In this document: positions 24,210 through 39,484 of the stretch, piece by piece
How the letters are laid out: each line of letters begins with the position of its first letter
Numbering within the stretch: the first letter of the stretch is position 1
Source: a virus
Virus record (IMG/VR): IMGVR_UViG_3300031276_000007
Location: 1-41,475 of that record
Strand: one strand, 5' to 3'
DNA: 41,475 bases
Notes under the pieces: generated by a model
Told to the model about the DNA's origin: nothing
Database searches by the model: none
What the model saw: the letters and a program-made list of their open reading frames with translations, nothing else
Position numbers and translations under genes: made by a program

Positions 24210-24325
24210 TTTATAACCACACCTAATCCAATTGTTTCTCTTTTTGTTATGTATGAATTATTTAAACGGCAATAATCAAACTCTTTGTTAGCATATTCTA
24301 ATACTCTTTTTAACATTTCATTCAT
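24206..24325 (-). CDS. Small hypothetical protein (39 aa)
   Basis: A 39-residue frame starting eight bases inside the upstream gene and ending in an ATGA overlap with the next. A helical N-terminus is followed by a short beta tail. The overlaps on both sides match the style of this operon, but the length leaves doubt. Confidence 0.4.
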   Translation of the reverse strand: MNEMLKRVLEYANKEFDYCRLNNSYITKRETIGLGVVIK

Positions 24326-24554
24326 CTTCACTCACTAAACTTAATCCTTCATATTCTTCTCTTGTTATTTGATTTGCACAATAAGGACACATTACCTGTC
24401 CATCTAATTCCCACCCTCTATTAGAAACAAACTTCATAGCCTGATCTCCAGTTTCACCTTTCTCTAAATCAATTTGAACTATCTCTTGCTCCCAACAATT
24501 ATGATCAAATTGAAATTCACAAGTAACTTCATAAATACCATATAATTTAATCAT
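24318..24554 (-). CDS. Small protein with CPYC motif
   Basis: A 78-residue acidic protein with GGAGAGATA before the ATG. It has CEFQFDHNCWEQ near the N-terminus and MCPYCANQ near residue 55, so likely a zinc site. It is the second gene of the leftward operon. Function unknown. Confidence 0.55.
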   Translation of the reverse strand: MIKLYGIYEVTCEFQFDHNCWEQEIVQIDLEKGETGDQAMKFVSNRGWELDGQVMCPYCANQITREEYEGLSLVSEDE

Positions 24555-29168: not shown

Positions 29169-31823
29169 CTAATATTCTTCTTTAATTATTCTTGAATCCA
29201 AGCACGCTCCACCGACATCAAGACACCTTGTTACCATTACTTCTTTTTTCTTGTTAAATTTCTTAAAACGATCTGCGACAACAGATATTCTAATACAGCC
29301 ATTGTCTTCGTCTTCTTGACTCTGGTTGATTGCACCAGCCCAAGTAACGTGGTTAAGTTTCCTGGAATCCTCACTCAAATCACCTTGTCTAATATCCCTA
29401 TCATATGTCGCCTTATTACTATGACTTATGACAGCGACAAGACAATTATATTCTTGACTAATAGATCTTAGTCTCAACCATGTTTCATTAATTTGATCTC
29501 TCGTATCTCCCTTAAACTCAGGGCCCAAAATATCAGGATAATCAACTAAAATAACATCTGGTATAAATTGTTCATAATGTTCAAAGTTAGTCAATATAAC
29601 TTGTATTTCGCTCGCCTTGATACTTCCTGATACACCACAGACTAACTTAAAATTACTATTAGTCAAAGAATGAATATCTTTCATTTTTTTTTGGACAATA
29701 TATTCGTCTATTTCTGACCTAACTTCTTTTTTCTGATATATATTCCCGTTACGATCAAAAGTCGGGACTTCAATTTCTTTGGAACCGACTCCATCTGTTT
29801 CCCCAGGAGCAAGCATCCCATTTGCCCTTTGGTGTAATCTTATCAATACTTGCTGTTCTGTCATCTCCATACTGACAAAAAGAATATTTAGTCCCTGAAG
29901 GGATGCATATGCCGCTATTTCTATAAGCATCCAGGAATTATGAACGACAATGTCATCAGAAATAAAATTATGGTACTTCTCTACAGAGATATCATACGTT
30001 TGTTGTAATCCTGCATCTGTGATGTCAATTATTTCATCCCATATAATGTCTGAATTTAAATGCATTTCTAAGATTTGACTATTAATTATGCCTTGGATAT
30101 TCAATAAAATTTTTCTTTTTACTCCACCGATATAAGATCTACATTTATAAAAGTTTTTAATTGGCTTGTAGCTAATAAACTCTTTATAGGATAATTTTTC
30201 TTTTTCTCTAAATTTTTGAAGCTCTCCATGTATTACATCTTTCATTTCATTTGGAAAAGAATCTAAAAAACTAAGCCCAGAGCGTTTTGAATTAATAATT
30301 CCTCTAAATGAATCAGCTTTATCTTGTTTAATAGAGAAAAAACCAATATCATCCAAGAACACAGTTAAATACTCTTTTGACCTGATTATTAATTCATAAT
30401 AAAATGTTCCATCTATTACTTTCTCCCTGGTAGTTGACAATATACCAAACCTCAACAAGAGATGTCTGATTTGACCTATCATCTTTTTACTTCCACTATT
30501 ATAACTTATTTCGATATTTTTTCTATCTTTCCAGATTGAGCCGTCACAAGTAAACAACCGATTAAGAAATAATGCAACTTGTATTTTTTTTAAAGTAAAA
30601 ATTATATCCGGTATTTCTTTATAAATTGATTTTACTCTCTTTATCTTATATCTATCTATCAATTCAGAAATATTAGATTTTTCTGGTACTCCATAACCTT
30701 TTGAAATATAATATTGACCAGCTACTTTTTTAGAAGTTAAACAATCACCAATATCTTCAACAGCAACCCTCATATCATCCACAACAACCGAATCTTTTTT
30801 TGTGAAAGATGGTGTCACTTGTGTTAATCCACCATCTGCTAATAAATAAGCAATTATTTTCACATGACTTTCTGGAATATTTTTCTTACCAAAAAAATCA
30901 ATTTTCTTTGAAGAAGCAATTCTATCCCCAGGTTTTAATTCACTCAAAGACTTCCACCCATTAAAAGTAAGAAAAGGATGCTCTTCTGTGACCTTTACAC
31001 TCCTACTTGTTTTTGTCTTAACTTTATAGACTTGCTTAATTCCATTGTCAAAAAAATCAAAAGCTTTTCTATCTTCAAATAACATAGTGTCTGTGTTCAG
31101 AGTAACTACATTTTCTATTTTACTCTTGACAATTTCTTCTATAGTTTTTATACTTCCATCTGATATTAAAATTTCACTATACATTTCAACGCACTTTCCC
31201 CGCTTTCCCGGTCCAACAAATGCTATAAAATCACCCCTTTTAAATGCACGAATTAATTTCCCTAAATCACCAGGAAATCTAAATAAATAAGAAGCGTCTA
31301 ACTCCCCCCTTATTGCATCTATAGATGCCTCTACATCAGTCCAGACATCTATTCCCATATTAATGTTTTTTTCTGTTTTCTTATAATCAGCTATTATAGC
31401 ATCTGCTTTTTCATAGTTCTGATTAAGCTGCGCTGCTTTAACTTGTTCAATATGTATGTCCAATGCAACATTTTTAAAGAACTTCACGGCTTTATCAACA
31501 TGATAGTCTACATTGAAATTTTCATTGACATACTGATCACTAATACTCTCTAAAAAAGTCTCTATCATTTTAAAAGTAGACTCATCTCTAATAAGATCCT
31601 TTTTAGATTCAAGAATACTTTTAATGTCTTTCCCCGGTGTCTTATCATATTTTTTGAAGTAGTCGAGGCACCAATCAGCAGTCATTCTTACATATTTAAC
31701 TTTAAAAAATTCTGGACGATAAATTTTTTGTATCTTCTGAGTAAACTCTTTATTGATAATTAATCCGGTTATTATATCTCTTTCGACATTTTTTTCTAAT
31801 GTTGTACGTTCAAATTCAATCAT
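29169..31823 (-). CDS. dnaB: DnaB-type replicative helicase interrupted by an intein
   Basis: 884 residues from the ATG at 31823 (AAGGTGAGACA upstream; an ATG eight codons earlier is less likely). N-extein 1-210: DnaB N-terminal helical domain, then the P-loop start VGPGKRGK. Intein at 211-629. C-extein 630-884: SWMLIEIA completes the P-loop, then LFVSMEM, VILVDYPDI (Walker B), VAVISHSN, and HVTWAGAINQSQED, then RF and TRC near the end. The spliced helicase would be 465 residues, the usual DnaB size. It unwinds the fork with the primase encoded at 39638-40513. Activity depends on intein removal because the catalytic loop is split. Confidence 0.9.
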   Translation of the reverse strand: MIEFERTTLEKNVERDIITGLIINKEFTQKIQKIYRPEFFKVKYVRMTADWCLDYFKKYDKTPGKDIKSILESKKDLIRDESTFKMIETFLESISDQYVNENFNVDYHVDKAVKFFKNVALDIHIEQVKAAQLNQNYEKADAIIADYKKTEKNINMGIDVWTDVEASIDAIRGELDASYLFRFPGDLGKLIRAFKRGDFIAFVGPGKRGKCVEMYSEILISDGSIKTIEEIVKSKIENVVTLNTDTMLFEDRKAFDFFDNGIKQVYKVKTKTSRSVKVTEEHPFLTFNGWKSLSELKPGDRIASSKKIDFFGKKNIPESHVKIIAYLLADGGLTQVTPSFTKKDSVVVDDMRVAVEDIGDCLTSKKVAGQYYISKGYGVPEKSNISELIDRYKIKRVKSIYKEIPDIIFTLKKIQVALFLNRLFTCDGSIWKDRKNIEISYNSGSKKMIGQIRHLLLRFGILSTTREKVIDGTFYYELIIRSKEYLTVFLDDIGFFSIKQDKADSFRGIINSKRSGLSFLDSFPNEMKDVIHGELQKFREKEKLSYKEFISYKPIKNFYKCRSYIGGVKRKILLNIQGIINSQILEMHLNSDIIWDEIIDITDAGLQQTYDISVEKYHNFISDDIVVHNSWMLIEIAAYASLQGLNILFVSMEMTEQQVLIRLHQRANGMLAPGETDGVGSKEIEVPTFDRNGNIYQKKEVRSEIDEYIVQKKMKDIHSLTNSNFKLVCGVSGSIKASEIQVILTNFEHYEQFIPDVILVDYPDILGPEFKGDTRDQINETWLRLRSISQEYNCLVAVISHSNKATYDRDIRQGDLSEDSRKLNHVTWAGAINQSQEDEDNGCIRISVVADRFKKFNKKKEVMVTRCLDVGGACLDSRIIKEEY
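29937..31193 (-). mobile_element. Intein with LAGLIDADG homing endonuclease in helicase P-loop
   Basis: A 419-residue in-frame insertion. It begins with Cys (CVEMYSEILISDG, block A), has VTEEHPFLT (block B, TxxH) and ends YHNFISDDIVVHN with +1 Ser, so all splicing residues are present (Cys1, His-Asn, Ser+1). The central endonuclease has two degenerate LAGLIDADG motifs: IIAYLLADGG and LNRLFTCDGS, each with an Asp before Gly. It sits exactly between Lys and Ser of the Walker A motif, a favoured site for DnaB/RecA-fold inteins. It looks intact for splicing; endonuclease competence is likely but unproven. Confidence 0.92.
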
Positions 31824-31843
31824 TGTCTCACCTTTTATGTATA

Positions 31844-31927
31844 TCATTTATTAAATTTATTATATAGCTCTACTATTTCGCCATAACCGAGATCAATTAA
31901 AACATTATATAATACTTTATCTGCCAT
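31844..31927 (-). CDS. Possible 27-residue ORF upstream of helicase
   Basis: A short frame (MADKVLYNVLIDLGYGEIVELYNKF...) ending in an ATGA-type overlap with the extended helicase frame. The codon use is protein-like, but it lacks a good ribosome-binding site. Could equally be a leader peptide or chance. Confidence 0.3.
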   Translation of the reverse strand: MADKVLYNVLIDLGYGEIVELYNKFNK

Positions 31928-32550: not shown

Positions 32551-33066
32551 CTATCTTAATTTTAAATGTCCTGTTATAGGATCAATCTTTTCTGAATAAT
32601 CAGGACCTATTGCAAGTGATGTATAAGTTAATTTACTTATTTTTCCTGAACCATTACATTTATCACAGGTATAGTCTGTCCCCCTAAAAGTATTTGATCC
32701 AACTGATGTTTCTATTAGTCCTAATCTGTTACAAATTGGGCAGTCTTCCTTAAATTCTGTAAATCCTAAGTCCTGTATAATAGCATTTATAATACCAGCT
32801 TCTTTAGCTTGTGTGTGTAAATTAAATAATTCTTCCTCGGAATTGCAGGATACTACTATTTTTGTATAATTAGATCCCATCCATTCAAGCATAGGATGTG
32901 TAAAATCACAGTTAAAGTCACCATATTTATGACTAAATTCAGGATTATTTTTATTCATCCTATCAAAGAATACTTTTTGGGATGCATGAGCAATTTGGGC
33001 AGACTCTTTTCCTCTACGCATTTTGAGATCAGCACGTATTACTATTACTTGTTTTATATTATTCAT
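32551..33066 (-). CDS. pth2: Peptidyl-tRNA hydrolase 2 (Pth2) with inserted zinc domain
   Basis: A 171-residue protein. The ATG at 33066 is preferred because GGGTGA lies just upstream. Pth2 landmarks: KQVIVIRADLKMRRGKESAQIAHAS (6-29), KIVVSCNSEEEL (69-80), INAIIQDLGFTEF (93-105), and T-x-LAIGP then ITGHLKLR at the C-terminus. Between the strands at about 108 and 144 sits an extra CPICNRLG...CDKCNGSG (Cys109, 112, 134, 137), a DnaJ-type zinc repeat not present in ordinary Pth2. Pth2 releases tRNA from peptidyl-tRNA drop-off products, which fits a phage with its own tRNA cluster. Confidence 0.8.
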   Translation of the reverse strand: MNNIKQVIVIRADLKMRRGKESAQIAHASQKVFFDRMNKNNPEFSHKYGDFNCDFTHPMLEWMGSNYTKIVVSCNSEEELFNLHTQAKEAGIINAIIQDLGFTEFKEDCPICNRLGLIETSVGSNTFRGTDYTCDKCNGSGKISKLTYTSLAIGPDYSEKIDPITGHLKLR

Positions 33067-33118
33067 TAATTCACCCATTTATAATTTTTTGTATATTCTA
33101 ATATATTCTCGTTTAGAA

Positions 33119-34171: not shown

Positions 34172-34792
34172 CTATTTTGTAACCATTTTATTTACAGATA
34201 AGAGAGGGTTCTCAAAATCTATCACAATTTCCCACGTCTTATAATTCATAATGTTAAAAATATTTGACGGTTTATGATCTACCCATGTCGTAGATAATAA
34301 TGTTGGAAGCCAAACCGCTGGTTGACCTTCATCAAAAGGAGATACTTTAAAATGTCTAAATATAACTGCCCTTTTATCCATATCGCTACATGCGCTATTT
34401 TTCTGAATCACTCCTCTGGCCCACTCAAAAAACATAGTAACTATGTTTTTATTTAAATCTATATTATAACACTTTGCCAATTTTTGTATTATAGGCATCC
34501 ATTCGTTCTTATTCTTTTCGGCTGTAAAAGCACATCCTGCATTATCTTTTTCTGGTGTTATAATACTCTTCTTGCTCTGTACCCAGAACCCATCTGGATT
34601 GCTATAACAAACAGAAGCGTTCGTGCCATGAATCTTTTCACTACCAACAGCTTTAATTAATGGTAATTTTATAGTGGGATCATATACTGATTCACCATTA
34701 TCATCTTCTCCTTTATATCTAACAGCATGGGTAATATCTTTGATACAATTCCTAAATTGCCCTATCTCTCCAAAACTTATAAATCTTTTCAT
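34172..34792 (-). CDS. Rnl2-type RNA ligase, lacking C-terminal motifs
   Basis: A 206-residue protein. The nucleotidyl-transferase Lys is in SEKIHGTN (Lys53, motif I). QSKKSIITPEKDNAGCAF follows, then TMFFEWARG (motif III region) and IFNIMNYKTWEIVIDF. Full-length Rnl2-like ligases of phages continue with a CPVA...EGIVW (motif IV) and a Lys motif V, but this chain stops about 20 residues before motif IV. It probably once repaired or sealed RNA such as cut tRNA. As it stands it may adenylylate poorly or be inactive. Confidence 0.75.
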   Translation of the reverse strand: MKRFISFGEIGQFRNCIKDITHAVRYKGEDDNGESVYDPTIKLPLIKAVGSEKIHGTNASVCYSNPDGFWVQSKKSIITPEKDNAGCAFTAEKNKNEWMPIIQKLAKCYNIDLNKNIVTMFFEWARGVIQKNSACSDMDKRAVIFRHFKVSPFDEGQPAVWLPTLLSTTWVDHKPSNIFNIMNYKTWEIVIDFENPLLSVNKMVTK

Positions 34793-37337: not shown

Positions 37338-37361
37338 GTGAATTTCCTCTCCTTTTATTTC

Positions 37362-37444
37362 GGAAGGTAAGGGATTCGAACCCTTGTAGCATTACACTAA
37401 ATGATTTAGCAAACCACCGCTTTAGACCACTCAGCCAACCTTCC
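37362..37444 (-). tRNA. tRNA-Ser(GCT)
   Basis: 83 nt; acceptor GGAAGGT/ACCTTCC; anticodon loop TTGCTAA (anticodon GCT); a long variable arm as expected for Ser; T-arm GGGTTCGAATCCC. CCA is not encoded. It reads AGC/AGU codons. Confidence 0.9.
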
Positions 37445-37451
37445 ATGATGC

Positions 37452-37531
37452 GGAGAGTAGAGTAATCGAAACCCGTGCCCGAAAACACCCCAGGGGTTCA
37501 AACCCTGTTTGCCACCTTGACGGTACTCTCC
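37452..37531 (-). tRNA. tRNA-Ser(TGA)
   Basis: 80 nt; acceptor GGAGAGT/ACTCTCC; anticodon arm CAGGG-TTTGAAC-CCCTG with anticodon TGA; type II variable arm; T-loop TTCGATT. The outer T-stem pair is a mismatch. It reads UCA codons. Confidence 0.8.
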
Positions 37532-37536
37532 ATATT

Positions 37537-37604
37537 CACAATAGCTAGTGTTACAGGAATGGTATTCACCACTGTACTACTCAACGTGTAGTTTCACTAT
37601 TGTG
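37537..37604 (-). ncRNA. Structured 68-nt element between tRNAs
   Basis: Closed by a perfect CACAATAG/CTATTGTG stem. Inside are ACTAC-ACGTTGA-GTAGT (5-7-5 like an anticodon arm but without U33) and TACAG...CTGTA enclosing TGGT-GAAT-ACCA. It lacks D- and T-arm sequences. It may be a degenerate tRNA or a separate small RNA. Confidence 0.35.
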
Positions 37605-37617
37605 TTTTTGGTTTATT

Positions 37618-37657
37618 GTATATGTTTAATCTCACCACAGAAAATACCAACATATAC
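37618..37657 (-). repeat. 9-bp hairpin with GTT-GGTATTTT...AAC motif, copy 1
   Basis: GTATATGTT/AACATATAC around a 22-base loop beginning GGTATTTTCTG on the minus strand. The same GTT-GGTATTTT...AAC core recurs at 38638-38660 and, with one extra base, at 39029-39070. Confidence 0.45.
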
Positions 37658-37718
37658 TCTTTCAGGAGCTTATGATTATTCCTGATTTTTAACGATAGCT
37701 AATCCGTGAACCAAATAT

Positions 37719-37791
37719 GCGAATACACGGACTCGAACCGTAACTTGCTGGTTGGAAGCCAGCCGTGCTAATCCATTAACACTATATCCGC
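37719..37791 (-). tRNA. tRNA-Gly(TCC)
   Basis: 73 nt; acceptor GCGGATA with 3' TATTCGC; D-loop with GG; anticodon arm GCTGG-CTTCCAA-CCAGC (anticodon TCC); T-arm ACGGTTCGAGTCCGT. Reads GGA/GGG. Confidence 0.92.
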
Positions 37792-37795
37792 CTAA

Positions 37796-37823
37796 CTGCT
37801 CTCTGGCGCAAGACAGAGAGCAG
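37796..37823 (-). repeat. 10-bp hairpin between tRNA genes
   Basis: CTGCTCTCTG/CAGAGAGCAG around GCGCAAGA, four bases upstream of tRNA-Gly on the minus strand; no T-tract. Likely an RNA-processing signal in the tRNA transcript. Confidence 0.5.
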
Positions 37824-37891
37824 AATACATAAAACAATACAAACATTTTTTATTCGAAACGATGGTTTACGATACCGTCAAACGTTCAATT

Positions 37892-37962
37892 TGTCTGGGA
37901 CCGGAATTGAACCGATCATCTCATACTGACTGTATGCGTCACTACTATTGGACTACCAGACA
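37892..37962 (-). tRNA. tRNA-like gene, probable Asp(GTC), with irregular anticodon loop
   Basis: 71 nt; acceptor TGTCTGG/CCAGACA; T-arm CGGTTCAATTCCG. The anticodon arm is only 15 nt: CATA-CAGTCAG-TATG gives anticodon GTC but A in place of invariant U33 (or a 5-nt loop on a 5-bp stem). The D-loop has AG where GG is usual. It may be non-functional or edited. Confidence 0.55.
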
Positions 37963-38090
37963 CCGTTCATACAGATCCAAGAACTACCAAGTGATTTTTC
38001 CTGCAAATCAACAGGACTTAGTAACCATTGCCAGGAAGTGTTTATTCTGCTTGAGTTCACAAAATGGACAGAGCTGGTTGGATTTTCTTT

Positions 38091-38161
38091 AGCGGAGGAG
38101 GGATTCGAACCCACACCACCAGGGATATGAACCCTGTATGCAGCCATTGCATTACTCCGCT
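38091..38161 (-). tRNA. tRNA-Met(CAT)
   Basis: 71 nt; acceptor AGCGGAG/CTCCGCT; D-stem ATGC/GCAT with loop AATGGCT; anticodon arm CAGGG-TTCATAT-CCCTG (CAT); T-arm GGGTTCGAATCCC. Three G:C pairs flank the loop as in initiators, but the 1:72 pair is matched. It could also be an Ile2 tRNA if C34 is modified. Confidence 0.85.
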
Positions 38162-38170
38162 ATAATTTCT

Positions 38171-38323
38171 CTAGTAAATGATAATTTCTATATTAACTTT
38201 GTTTGGATGATCTAGACATAAAGTATTTGATAAGTCTTTCAAAACTTGATCTTTGTTTTCTACTTCGCTTGTTCCAGTTTTTTCAAAATTATTATCAATA
38301 GTAATTAACCACTCATACAACAT
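38171..38323 (-). CDS. Small ORF between tRNA genes (50 aa)
   Basis: A 50-residue frame with AAAGGAGATATT before its ATG. MLYEWLITIDNNFEKTG... is alpha/beta and acidic. The strong ribosome-binding site supports translation. Function unknown. Confidence 0.55.
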   Translation of the reverse strand: MLYEWLITIDNNFEKTGTSEVENKDQVLKDLSNTLCLDHPNKVNIEIIIY

Positions 38324-38338
38324 AATATCTCCTTTGTT

Positions 38339-38449
38339 TTACCCCCTAAGGGGGCGACAGCTTTCAATTTTTAAGTCTGTAGGTACTGCCCATGAAGGAT
38401 AATCCCAACCTATTACAAACTTATAGATCAGTACAGATTTTAGTTCCAT
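38339..38449 (-). CDS. Possible 36-residue ORF
   Basis: MELKSVLIYKFVIGWDYPSW..., ending RPLRG within a CCCCC-TAA-GGGGG hairpin (38342-38354). No ribosome-binding site, but composition is protein-like. The 116 bases upstream (38450-38565) hold a GTTAAG/CTTAAC hairpin and no gene. Confidence 0.35.
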   Translation of the reverse strand: MELKSVLIYKFVIGWDYPSWAVPTDLKIESCRPLRG

Positions 38450-38565
38450 TAATCAGTTAAGAACAAATCAGCCTGTACGCCTTAACGTGTTTCTCAATCG
38501 CTCTATTATGTCTGTCGCACGTTCCCAAGACACCACTTACTTTTTAAAGAGCTTATAGAGACTTT

Positions 38566-38718
38566 GCATTAGACAGGACTCGAACCTGTATGTCTGGTGC
38601 CCTTTTCTTTTCGTCATATAGACTACTAAGCGTTCTCGGCGTTTCAAAAATACCAACGTCTACAAATTTAATCACATCCAATGTGAACCTCAAGGCTTTG
38701 CTATTTCGCCACTAATGC
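38566..38718 (-). tRNA. tRNA-like gene with about 70 extra nt (type II ends)
   Basis: 153 nt. The ends pair perfectly (GCATTAG/CTAATGC); the T-arm is ACAGGTTCGAGTCCTGT; the 5' part TG-GCGAAATAGCAAAGCC resembles a Leu-type D-arm with AG in place of GG. Between them lies about 105 nt where 35-45 would be expected, with hairpins CACAT-TGG-ATGTG and GTT-GGTATTTT..AAC. No canonical anticodon arm could be placed. Confidence 0.45.
38638..38660 (-). repeat. GTT-GGTATTTT...AAC hairpin, copy 2
   Basis: GACGTT/AACGCC (one mismatch) around GGTATTTTTGA, inside the oversized tRNA-like gene 38566-38718. Confidence 0.4.
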
Positions 38719-38764
38719 ACTGTTCATAATTTTTACTACATGATGCATGAACAAAACACCAATG

Positions 38765-38895
38765 CGACTCATCTGGATTCGAACCAGAGTCTCCTTGTTT
38801 ATCTCCAACCAGTAATCAACTAGTTGTTTTATCCTCCATGTTTGATTAGAACATGTACTTTCTGAGCAAGGCGTTTTTCCTAAAACTATGAGCCG
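38765..38895 (-). tRNA. tRNA-like gene with about 62-nt interruption in the anticodon loop
   Basis: 131 nt. Acceptor CGGCTCA/TGAGTCG (one G.U); U8-A9; D-arm GTTT-TAGGAA-AAAC with GG; T-arm TCTGGTTCGAATCCAGA; a short AGAC variable region. The 5' anticodon stem CCTTG and loop start CTCAGA are separated from the matching 3' stem CAAGG by about 62 nt, itself foldable (CATGTT/AACATG; CAACTAGT/ACTGGTTG). Joining at the CAAGG side gives a normal 69-nt tRNA with loop CTCAGAA if the junction is after position 37. The anticodon is therefore unresolved. Confidence 0.5.
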
Positions 38896-38899
38896 ATTT

Positions 38900-39020
38900 G
38901 TCAAGGGCAAGATTCGAACTTGCACGGAGGTGGTTGATCACTTGTTTTGCCACAAATGCTTTTCCCACTTTCTCCCCCAGGGCTTTCCTGGTGCTTTTGA
39001 CCAATTTTCGCCACCTTGAC
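38900..39020 (-). tRNA. tRNA-like gene with extended internal helix
   Basis: 121 nt. Acceptor GTCAAGG/CCTTGAC perfect; TG-GCGAAAATTGG 5' part with GG; T-arm GCAAGTTCGAATCTTGC. Inside: CCAGG-AAAGC-CCTGG, then a long interrupted helix GGAG(AAA)GTGG...CCACCTCC enclosing CATTTGT-GGCAAA-ACAAGTG. No standard anticodon arm with U33 is apparent. It is the first tRNA-like gene after the promoter and lies four bases from the next. Confidence 0.45.
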
Positions 39021-39028
39021 CCCTTGGC

Positions 39029-39070
39029 CGACGTTACCAAGAAATATCCCAACTATGTTTTTTACCGTCG
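39029..39070 (-). repeat. GTT-GGGATATTT...AAC hairpin, copy 3
   Basis: Outer CGACG/CGTCG and inner GTT/AAC enclosing GGGATATTTCTTGGT on the minus strand, in the leader just upstream of the first tRNA-like gene. Confidence 0.4.
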
Positions 39071-39180
39071 TTTATCATTCTGGTGGGCGTCTTGACCAGT
39101 TGCTTCTTGTTTTATTTATCCACGCACCCTTACCGTCGATATTCTATTTTATATTTTATATTTTATTTAATTACTTGGTG

Positions 39181-39246
39181 GACTCACCTCCCATTTATTG
39201 TGACTTTTTCGAGTACTCTATTTAGTGAGTCATAAGTGAGACTCAC
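39181..39246. repeat. Cluster of GACTCAC direct and inverted repeats
   Basis: GACTCAC at 39181-39187 and 39240-39246, GTGAGTC at 39225-39231, and a GTGAG-A-CTCAC palindrome at 39236-39246. The 39181/39225 pair closes a 51-base stem-loop that is followed on the minus strand by CACCA, like a tRNA 3' end, but without T-arm. Confidence 0.5.
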
Positions 39247-39276
39247 ATACTATCATTCACATTTTATCTTTATAAC

Positions 39277-39370
39277 ATATGGCAGGGGACGTGGTAAGGA
39301 AAATTGGGGGGCCAAAACCTTACCGATCTTAACTCAAGAGGATTGTAAGATCTTATCCCCTGGCACATAT
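39277..39370 (-). ncRNA. Predicted three-way-junction RNA in tRNA-operon leader
   Basis: Helix P1: ATATG/CATAT (39277-39281 with 39366-39370) plus CAGGGGA/TCCCCTG (39283-39289 with 39356-39362). P2: GGTAAGG/CCTTACC (39293-39299 with 39318-39324) with inner TTGG-GGGG-CCAA. P3: GATCTTA/TAAGATC (39325-39331 with 39346-39352). All helices pair perfectly apart from a small internal loop in P1. It lies about 80 nt after the likely start of the leftward tRNA transcript. No known riboswitch or ribozyme core was recognised. Confidence 0.55.
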
Positions 39371-39378
39371 TATAAGAT

Positions 39379-39424
39379 CATTTGCCTCCAAGCTTAACTG
39401 AGAATAAAAGCTTGGAGGCAAATG
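39379..39424 (-). repeat. 17-bp perfect hairpin near transcript 5' end
   Basis: CATTTGCCTCCAAGCTT (39379-39395) and AAGCTTGGAGGCAAATG (39408-39424) around 12 bases. It begins about 25 bases after the predicted start site, with no T-tract, so it is not an intrinsic terminator. Likely 5'-end protection or RNase III processing. Confidence 0.7.
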
Positions 39425-39455
39425 TCAATAAAAAAAATAATTAACAGTCATATAC

Positions 39456-39484
39456 AGTATACTGAAAAAATCAAAATGTGTTAA
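39456..39484 (-). promoter_or_regulatory. Leftward promoter of the tRNA/RNA cluster
   Basis: On the minus strand TTAACA (39484-39479), 17 bases, TATACT (39461-39456), same spacing and hexamers as at 18032-18060. It lies in the 3' end of a 55-codon gene and should transcribe 39.45 kb downward. Confidence 0.7.

Follow-up and report, generated by a model that had tools for sequence, protein, structure and literature searches.

Three consecutive genes at one end of a phage's tRNA cluster combine the ends of a tRNA with 35-70 nt of extra sequence, differently placed in each, and raise the question of whether they are tRNAs interrupted by introns, tRNA genes in decay or RNAs with some other role. 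They lie on the minus strand of the window (the whole stretch of DNA analysed, a 41.5-kb fragment of a tailed phage with a GC content of 31.6%). The initial annotation had described them as consecutive tRNA-like genes with extra nucleotides, at starts and lengths that proved exact, and had offered three readings: small introns of a new type, enlarged arms, or RNAs derived from tRNAs that serve some other purpose. They are referred to here as T1, T2 and T3.

The tRNA island

The phage genes in the window include baseplate genes and those for a DnaE-type polymerase, a DnaB-like helicase, a primase and a helicase. A LAGLIDADG-domain intein interrupts the DnaB-like helicase (29169-31847, minus strand), and a PTH2-type peptidyl-tRNA hydrolase with a cysteine-rich tail is encoded at 32551-33078 (minus strand) in this tRNA-carrying phage.

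The tRNA island occupies 37360-39020 on the minus strand. ARAGORN and Rfam together identify three canonical tRNAs: an ordinary tRNA-Ser (GCU) at 37360-37445 (ARAGORN; Rfam, 58.3 bits), a tRNA-Gly (UCC) at 37718-37791 (Rfam, 56.2 bits; missed by ARAGORN) and an ordinary tRNA-Met (CAU) at 38089-38162 (ARAGORN; Rfam, 58.8 bits). Two further members, also on the minus strand, are aberrant. The first, a tRNA-Ser-like gene (UGA) at 37453-37531 recognized by reading the sequence, has an acceptor stem GGAGAGT/ACTCTCC, a good anticodon arm (CAGGG-TTTGAAC-CCCTG) and an irregular D-arm, and is not matched by the Rfam tRNA model; a stretch within it, GTCAAGGTGGCAAA, shares 13 of 14 positions with the 5' end of T3. 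The second, an Asp-GUC-like gene at 37892-37962, was recognized from its acceptor stem, T-arm and fold and is detected by neither ARAGORN nor Rfam; A33 replaces U33 and a C-G pair at 32:38 leaves a 5-nt anticodon loop.

The spacer between the Gly and Ser-like genes (37534-37717, minus strand) is structured (z=-2.9), and 15 of 17 nt at 37641-37657 within it are shared with the T1 insert, a match that a search on this scale could produce by chance. A small ORF of 50 residues (38171-38323, minus strand) with a ribosome-binding-like AAAGGAG site lies between T1 and tRNA-Met. The region 38900-39460 folds with z=-6.8 and contains an inverted repeat (I2); within it, upstream of the genes, a structured RNA at 39260-39424 (minus strand) begins with a perfect 17-bp hairpin followed by a predicted three-way-junction fold with a C-rich loop, and may possibly be the leader of the island transcript.

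Anatomy of the three long genes

Each of the three genes has U8, a 7-bp acceptor stem and a 5-bp T-stem closing a TTCRANT loop, which bears out the matching acceptor stems and canonical T-arms described previously. None has the usual anticodon arm of a 5-bp stem and a 7-nt loop containing U33: T1 has no such stem, the loop of T2 is 69 nt long and that of T3 only 5 nt. ARAGORN detects none of the three, and the Rfam tRNA model does not match T2 or T3.

T1 (38566-38718, 153 nt) pairs GCATTAG/CTAATGC in its acceptor (7/7) and has the T-arm ACAGG-TTCGAGT-CCTGT (stem 5/5) and the D-arm GGCGAAATAGCAAAGCC. Its expansion amounts to about 70 nt, and a 5-bp anticodon stem was sought and could not be identified. 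The Rfam tRNA model gives 28.6 bits, slightly below the cut-off of 29 bits, and leaves 97 nt unaligned. T2 (38765-38895, 131 nt) has the acceptor CGGCTCA/TGAGTCG, with six Watson-Crick pairs and one G.U pair, and the T-arm TCTGG-TTCGAAT-CCAGA (stem 5/5). The anticodon stem CCTTG...CAAGG around a 62-nt insert proposed earlier holds in the constrained fold, where it encloses 69 nt, the normal 7 plus 62, with C32/U33 at the 5' side of the loop and purines at the 3' side. T3 (38900-39020, 121 nt) has the acceptor GTCAAGG/CCTTGAC (7/7) and the T-arm GCAAG-TTCGAAT-CTTGC (stem 5/5); its anticodon stem CCAGG/CCTGG is intact and closes the 5-nt loop AAAGC, which lacks U33. Its extra bases form a greatly expanded variable arm, and its 5' part is of the Leu type (GTGGCGAAAATTGG). 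The D-loop we take to be tRNA-Leu-like, with variants in T1 and in a related phage RNA described below; T1 and T3 differ from canonical tRNA-Leu in having no decodable anticodon and in being expanded within the 35-70 nt range. T1 and T3 are not expected to decode, since the one lacks a canonical anticodon stem and the other has a 5-nt loop without U33.

The suggestion that the inserts fold into hairpins applies to some of the genes. The predicted fold of T3 has an energy of -43.4 kcal/mol. Compared with shuffled sequences, whole-RNA folding gave p=0.25 (T1), 0.013 (T2) and 0.003 (T3), and folding of the interiors p=0.44, 0.086 and 0.017, respectively; the T3 insert is thus structured beyond shuffles, T2 is marginal and T1 is no more structured than its shuffles. 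Expanded arms, likewise, describe the variable arm of T3, whereas the insert of T2 sits in the anticodon loop.

The anatomy of T1-T3 is not produced by chance. In a scan for long tRNA-like genes (99-260 nt, with paired acceptor, T-stem, TTCRANT and U8), the region 37340-39460 yielded three, all on the strand of the tRNAs, against 0.001 per dinucleotide shuffle (2000 shuffles, maximum 1).

Related RNAs in other phages

Close relatives of the cluster were found neither by blastn in INPHARED nor in IMG/VR by primase or exact 20-mer searches. Distant relatives were reached through the polymerase, the nearest group being about 40-47% identical. One of these phages, IMGVR_UViG_3300017527_001189 (L004), whose DNA polymerase is 43% identical to that of the window phage, carries at 24234-24444 an intergenic tRNA-like RNA of 211 nt with the same acceptor/T design (acceptor CTGGCAG/CTGTCAG; T-arm CCCGG-TTCGAGT-CCGGG). 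Among the loci retrieved, about 1.4 Mb in all, it was the only further long candidate, with 0.33 expected from local shuffles; the same scan of the remaining phages reached through the polymerase, many of which have tRNA clusters, yielded nothing but tRNAs of ordinary length.

The L004 RNA resembles T1 in its tRNA-like ends, in a nearly identical D-arm (GTGGCGAAATTGGCAAGCC versus GTGGCGAAATAGCAAAGCC in T1) and in belonging to a phage of the same polymerase clade. It differs from T1-T3 in its length, in being single and in lying outside any tRNA cluster in the fragment seen. A search with the shared D-arm pattern retrieved a single match from IMG/VR, in the L004 phage, and 17 matches from 84,980 prokaryote genomes, about the number that we estimate for chance; none of the 17 is flanked by an acceptor and T-arm, a combination found around the pattern in T1 and L004 only. 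As the pattern was derived from these two RNAs, the acceptor and T-arm are the only independent part of this comparison.

A better known counterpart comes from phage T4, whose tRNA cluster ends with two small stable RNAs, rnaC (species 1 RNA; 139 nt) and rnaD (119 nt). Northern blots confirm the T4 RNAC as a late RNA, to which the literature assigns no role (PMC9697503, PMC3014915). In rnaC an acceptor-like stem joins both ends and the T-arm is perfect (CCGGG-TTCGAAT-CCCGG). Homologs occur in hundreds of T4-like records, and among nine T4-like genomes four of the 12 acceptor and T pairs have changed on both sides. Covariation was found in 10 cells against a shuffled mean of 3.4, a score reached in none of 500 shuffles, and was abolished when the pairing was shifted by 1-3 columns. 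These compensatory changes indicate that the tRNA-like frame of rnaC has been maintained in T4-like phages. The acceptor is paired at 7/7 positions in phiR1-RT; each of the remaining eight genomes leaves the two middle pairs of this stem open. In Escherichia phage AV115 (Mosigvirus; locus L133, 1501-1532), a 32-nt stretch spanning the 3' end of a gene annotated as tRNA-Asn also occurs unchanged in T4, where it comprises the 3' end of rnaC and the sequence after it; this suggests that exchange may have occurred between a tRNA and rnaC.

The rnaC of the Straboviridae is comparable to T1-T3 in size, in lying at one edge of its phage's tRNA genes and in having an acceptor-like stem formed by its ends, a canonical T-arm and an expanded interior, with long hairpins in place of the decoding part, which in T1-T3 is likewise replaced or enlarged. 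Its interior sequence and hairpins are, however, unrelated to theirs, its acceptor is paired at only 5/7 positions in T4 and most members whereas those of T1-T3 are fully paired, and T4 has one RNA of this type whereas the window phage has three. Moreover, rnaC has been seen experimentally, whereas T1-T3 are predicted from sequence. rnaD resembles T1-T3 as a small stable RNA beside rnaC in the tRNA cluster; unlike them it has neither a T-arm nor an acceptor stem that we could find. The interiors of T1-T3 gave no local alignment with each other, with rnaC or with rnaD that was significant over shuffles; the lowest values in the comparisons were p ~0.03 for rnaC with rnaD and p ~0.04 for T3 with the L004 RNA, both uncorrected for 15 comparisons. 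Since the alignments are no better than shuffles, the likeness between T1-T3 and rnaC is one of kind rather than of sequence, and the link that we propose is one of architecture and genomic place.

Proposed nature of the RNAs

T1-T3, the L004 RNA and rnaC all keep the 'top half' of a tRNA, with the decoding half replaced or enlarged. We propose, with a probability of about 0.62, that the island transcript gives rise to T1-T3 as small stable RNAs with tRNA ends and no decoding role, of the same kind as rnaC. Among the explanations offered at the outset, a tRNA-derived RNA with another job fits best, given the L004 RNA and T4 species 1 RNA. The position of T1-T3 on the same strand and in the same island as three canonical tRNAs counts for this reading, as do their fully paired acceptor and T-stems, which shuffles almost never yield; the T1 interior, no more structured than shuffles, the mutually unalignable interiors and the failure to find, in IMG/VR or INPHARED, a homolog close enough for a test of selection count against it.

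RNase P and tRNase Z recognize their substrates chiefly by the acceptor stem and T-arm, and T1-T3 would for this reason be cut from the island transcript as stable RNAs. In the mechanism envisaged, the acceptor stem and T-arm, with the tRNA-Leu-type D-loop in T1 and T3, would be read by the tRNA maturation enzymes of the host: RNase P would cut the 5' end, and tRNase Z followed by CCA addition, proposed because none of the three genes encodes CCA, would complete the 3' end. Processing would yield an RNA with protected ends, in which the actual function may be carried by the replaced or enlarged decoding half. Transcription, processing and stability are all features that we infer for T1-T3. The job of this payload is a matter for speculation, and could be the titration of host tRNA-binding factors or anticodon nucleases, or regulation by base pairing.

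One such function, a sub-case that overlaps with the proposal above, would be that of decoys against host defences that cut tRNAs, with altered anticodon and variable arms that avoid or titrate the nucleases. The ability of phage tRNAs to protect against defences that cleave tRNAs (PMC10264068, PMC13096335) makes a counter-defence role plausible, and changes in the anticodon loop are predicted to let phage tRNAs escape such nucleases (PMC10264068). Two island members, T3 and the gene at 37892-37962, have closed 5-nt anticodon loops without U33. With no usable anticodon, T1 and T3 could only be decoys and not replacements. This role is speculative for T1-T3, and we put it forward only tentatively.

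Alternative explanations

The genes could instead be tRNA genes in decay, still transcribed and without function, whose decoding arms have drifted or taken up extra sequence. Damage to the anticodon arms of T1 and T3 fits this explanation, as do the irregular arms of two more island members, the unrelated inserts, that of T1 not structured beyond chance, and the failure to find close homologs conserving T1-T3 in IMG/VR or INPHARED. Decay is nevertheless the less likely reading because every acceptor and T-stem pair is intact in each of the three genes, as is TTCRANT; the design also recurs in a relative phage (L004), and rnaC, the analogous RNA of T4, has been conserved through compensatory changes. 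Overall, we consider it unlikely. A gene assembled from the halves of two tRNAs would not have an acceptor that matches over 7 bp; because the acceptor halves do match over that length in each gene, fusion of two tRNA-gene halves across a deletion is rejected.

Less probable still are tRNAs bearing small introns, the halves of which would be joined into working tRNAs by the Rnl2-like RNA ligase of the phage or by host enzymes after removal of the intron. The suggestion has something to recommend it for T2, where a canonical 5-bp anticodon stem encloses the 62-nt excess in a loop with C32/U33 and 3' purines, and a short protein of the RNA-ligase family is encoded at 34172-34792 (minus strand). 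This protein has 206 residues and a KIHGT motif and matches PHROG 548 (E 6e-20) over profile positions 3-177 of 341, the C-terminal part being apparently absent. Its gene lies about 4 kb away from T1-T3, however, and phage ligases of this kind are usually explained as repairing cut tRNAs (PMC7824862); homologs were not found in the contigs of relatives, in a search that had no positive control. The inserts (35-70 nt) match no group I or group II intron in Rfam, and T2, judged by eye in one predicted fold, has a 3-bp helix with a single 5-nt bulge and no bulge-helix-bulge. For T1 and T3 the idea fails, since excision of a single loop insert would restore no anticodon stem-loop and so would not turn them into tRNAs; an intron is possible in T2 only.

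Relatives of tmRNA or of the Y RNA YrlA, which are larger RNAs with tRNA-like parts, are highly improbable: no tmRNA is matched by ARAGORN or by Rfam at E up to 10, YrlA (RF02553) is unmatched even at that threshold, the acceptor of T1-T3 is formed by each RNA's own ends, and the ORFs searched by Pfam, some of those in the window fragment, include no match to the Ro60 family.

Implications

The reappearance of the rnaC anatomy around unrelated interiors, in a phage lineage far removed from T4, suggests that phages have made repeated use of non-decoding RNAs with a tRNA cap. A bolder generalization, which we regard as doubtful, would unite rnaC, T1-T3 and the L004 RNA in a recurring unannotated class of phage RNAs, in which the acceptor/T-arm frame would act as a cap for end processing and stability and an unrelated payload would counter tRNA-based defences. 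Since tRNA finders discard such genes, T-arm and acceptor pairing around a long interior offers a search route to further examples, and T1-T3 themselves are concrete candidates for knock-out and small-RNA work.
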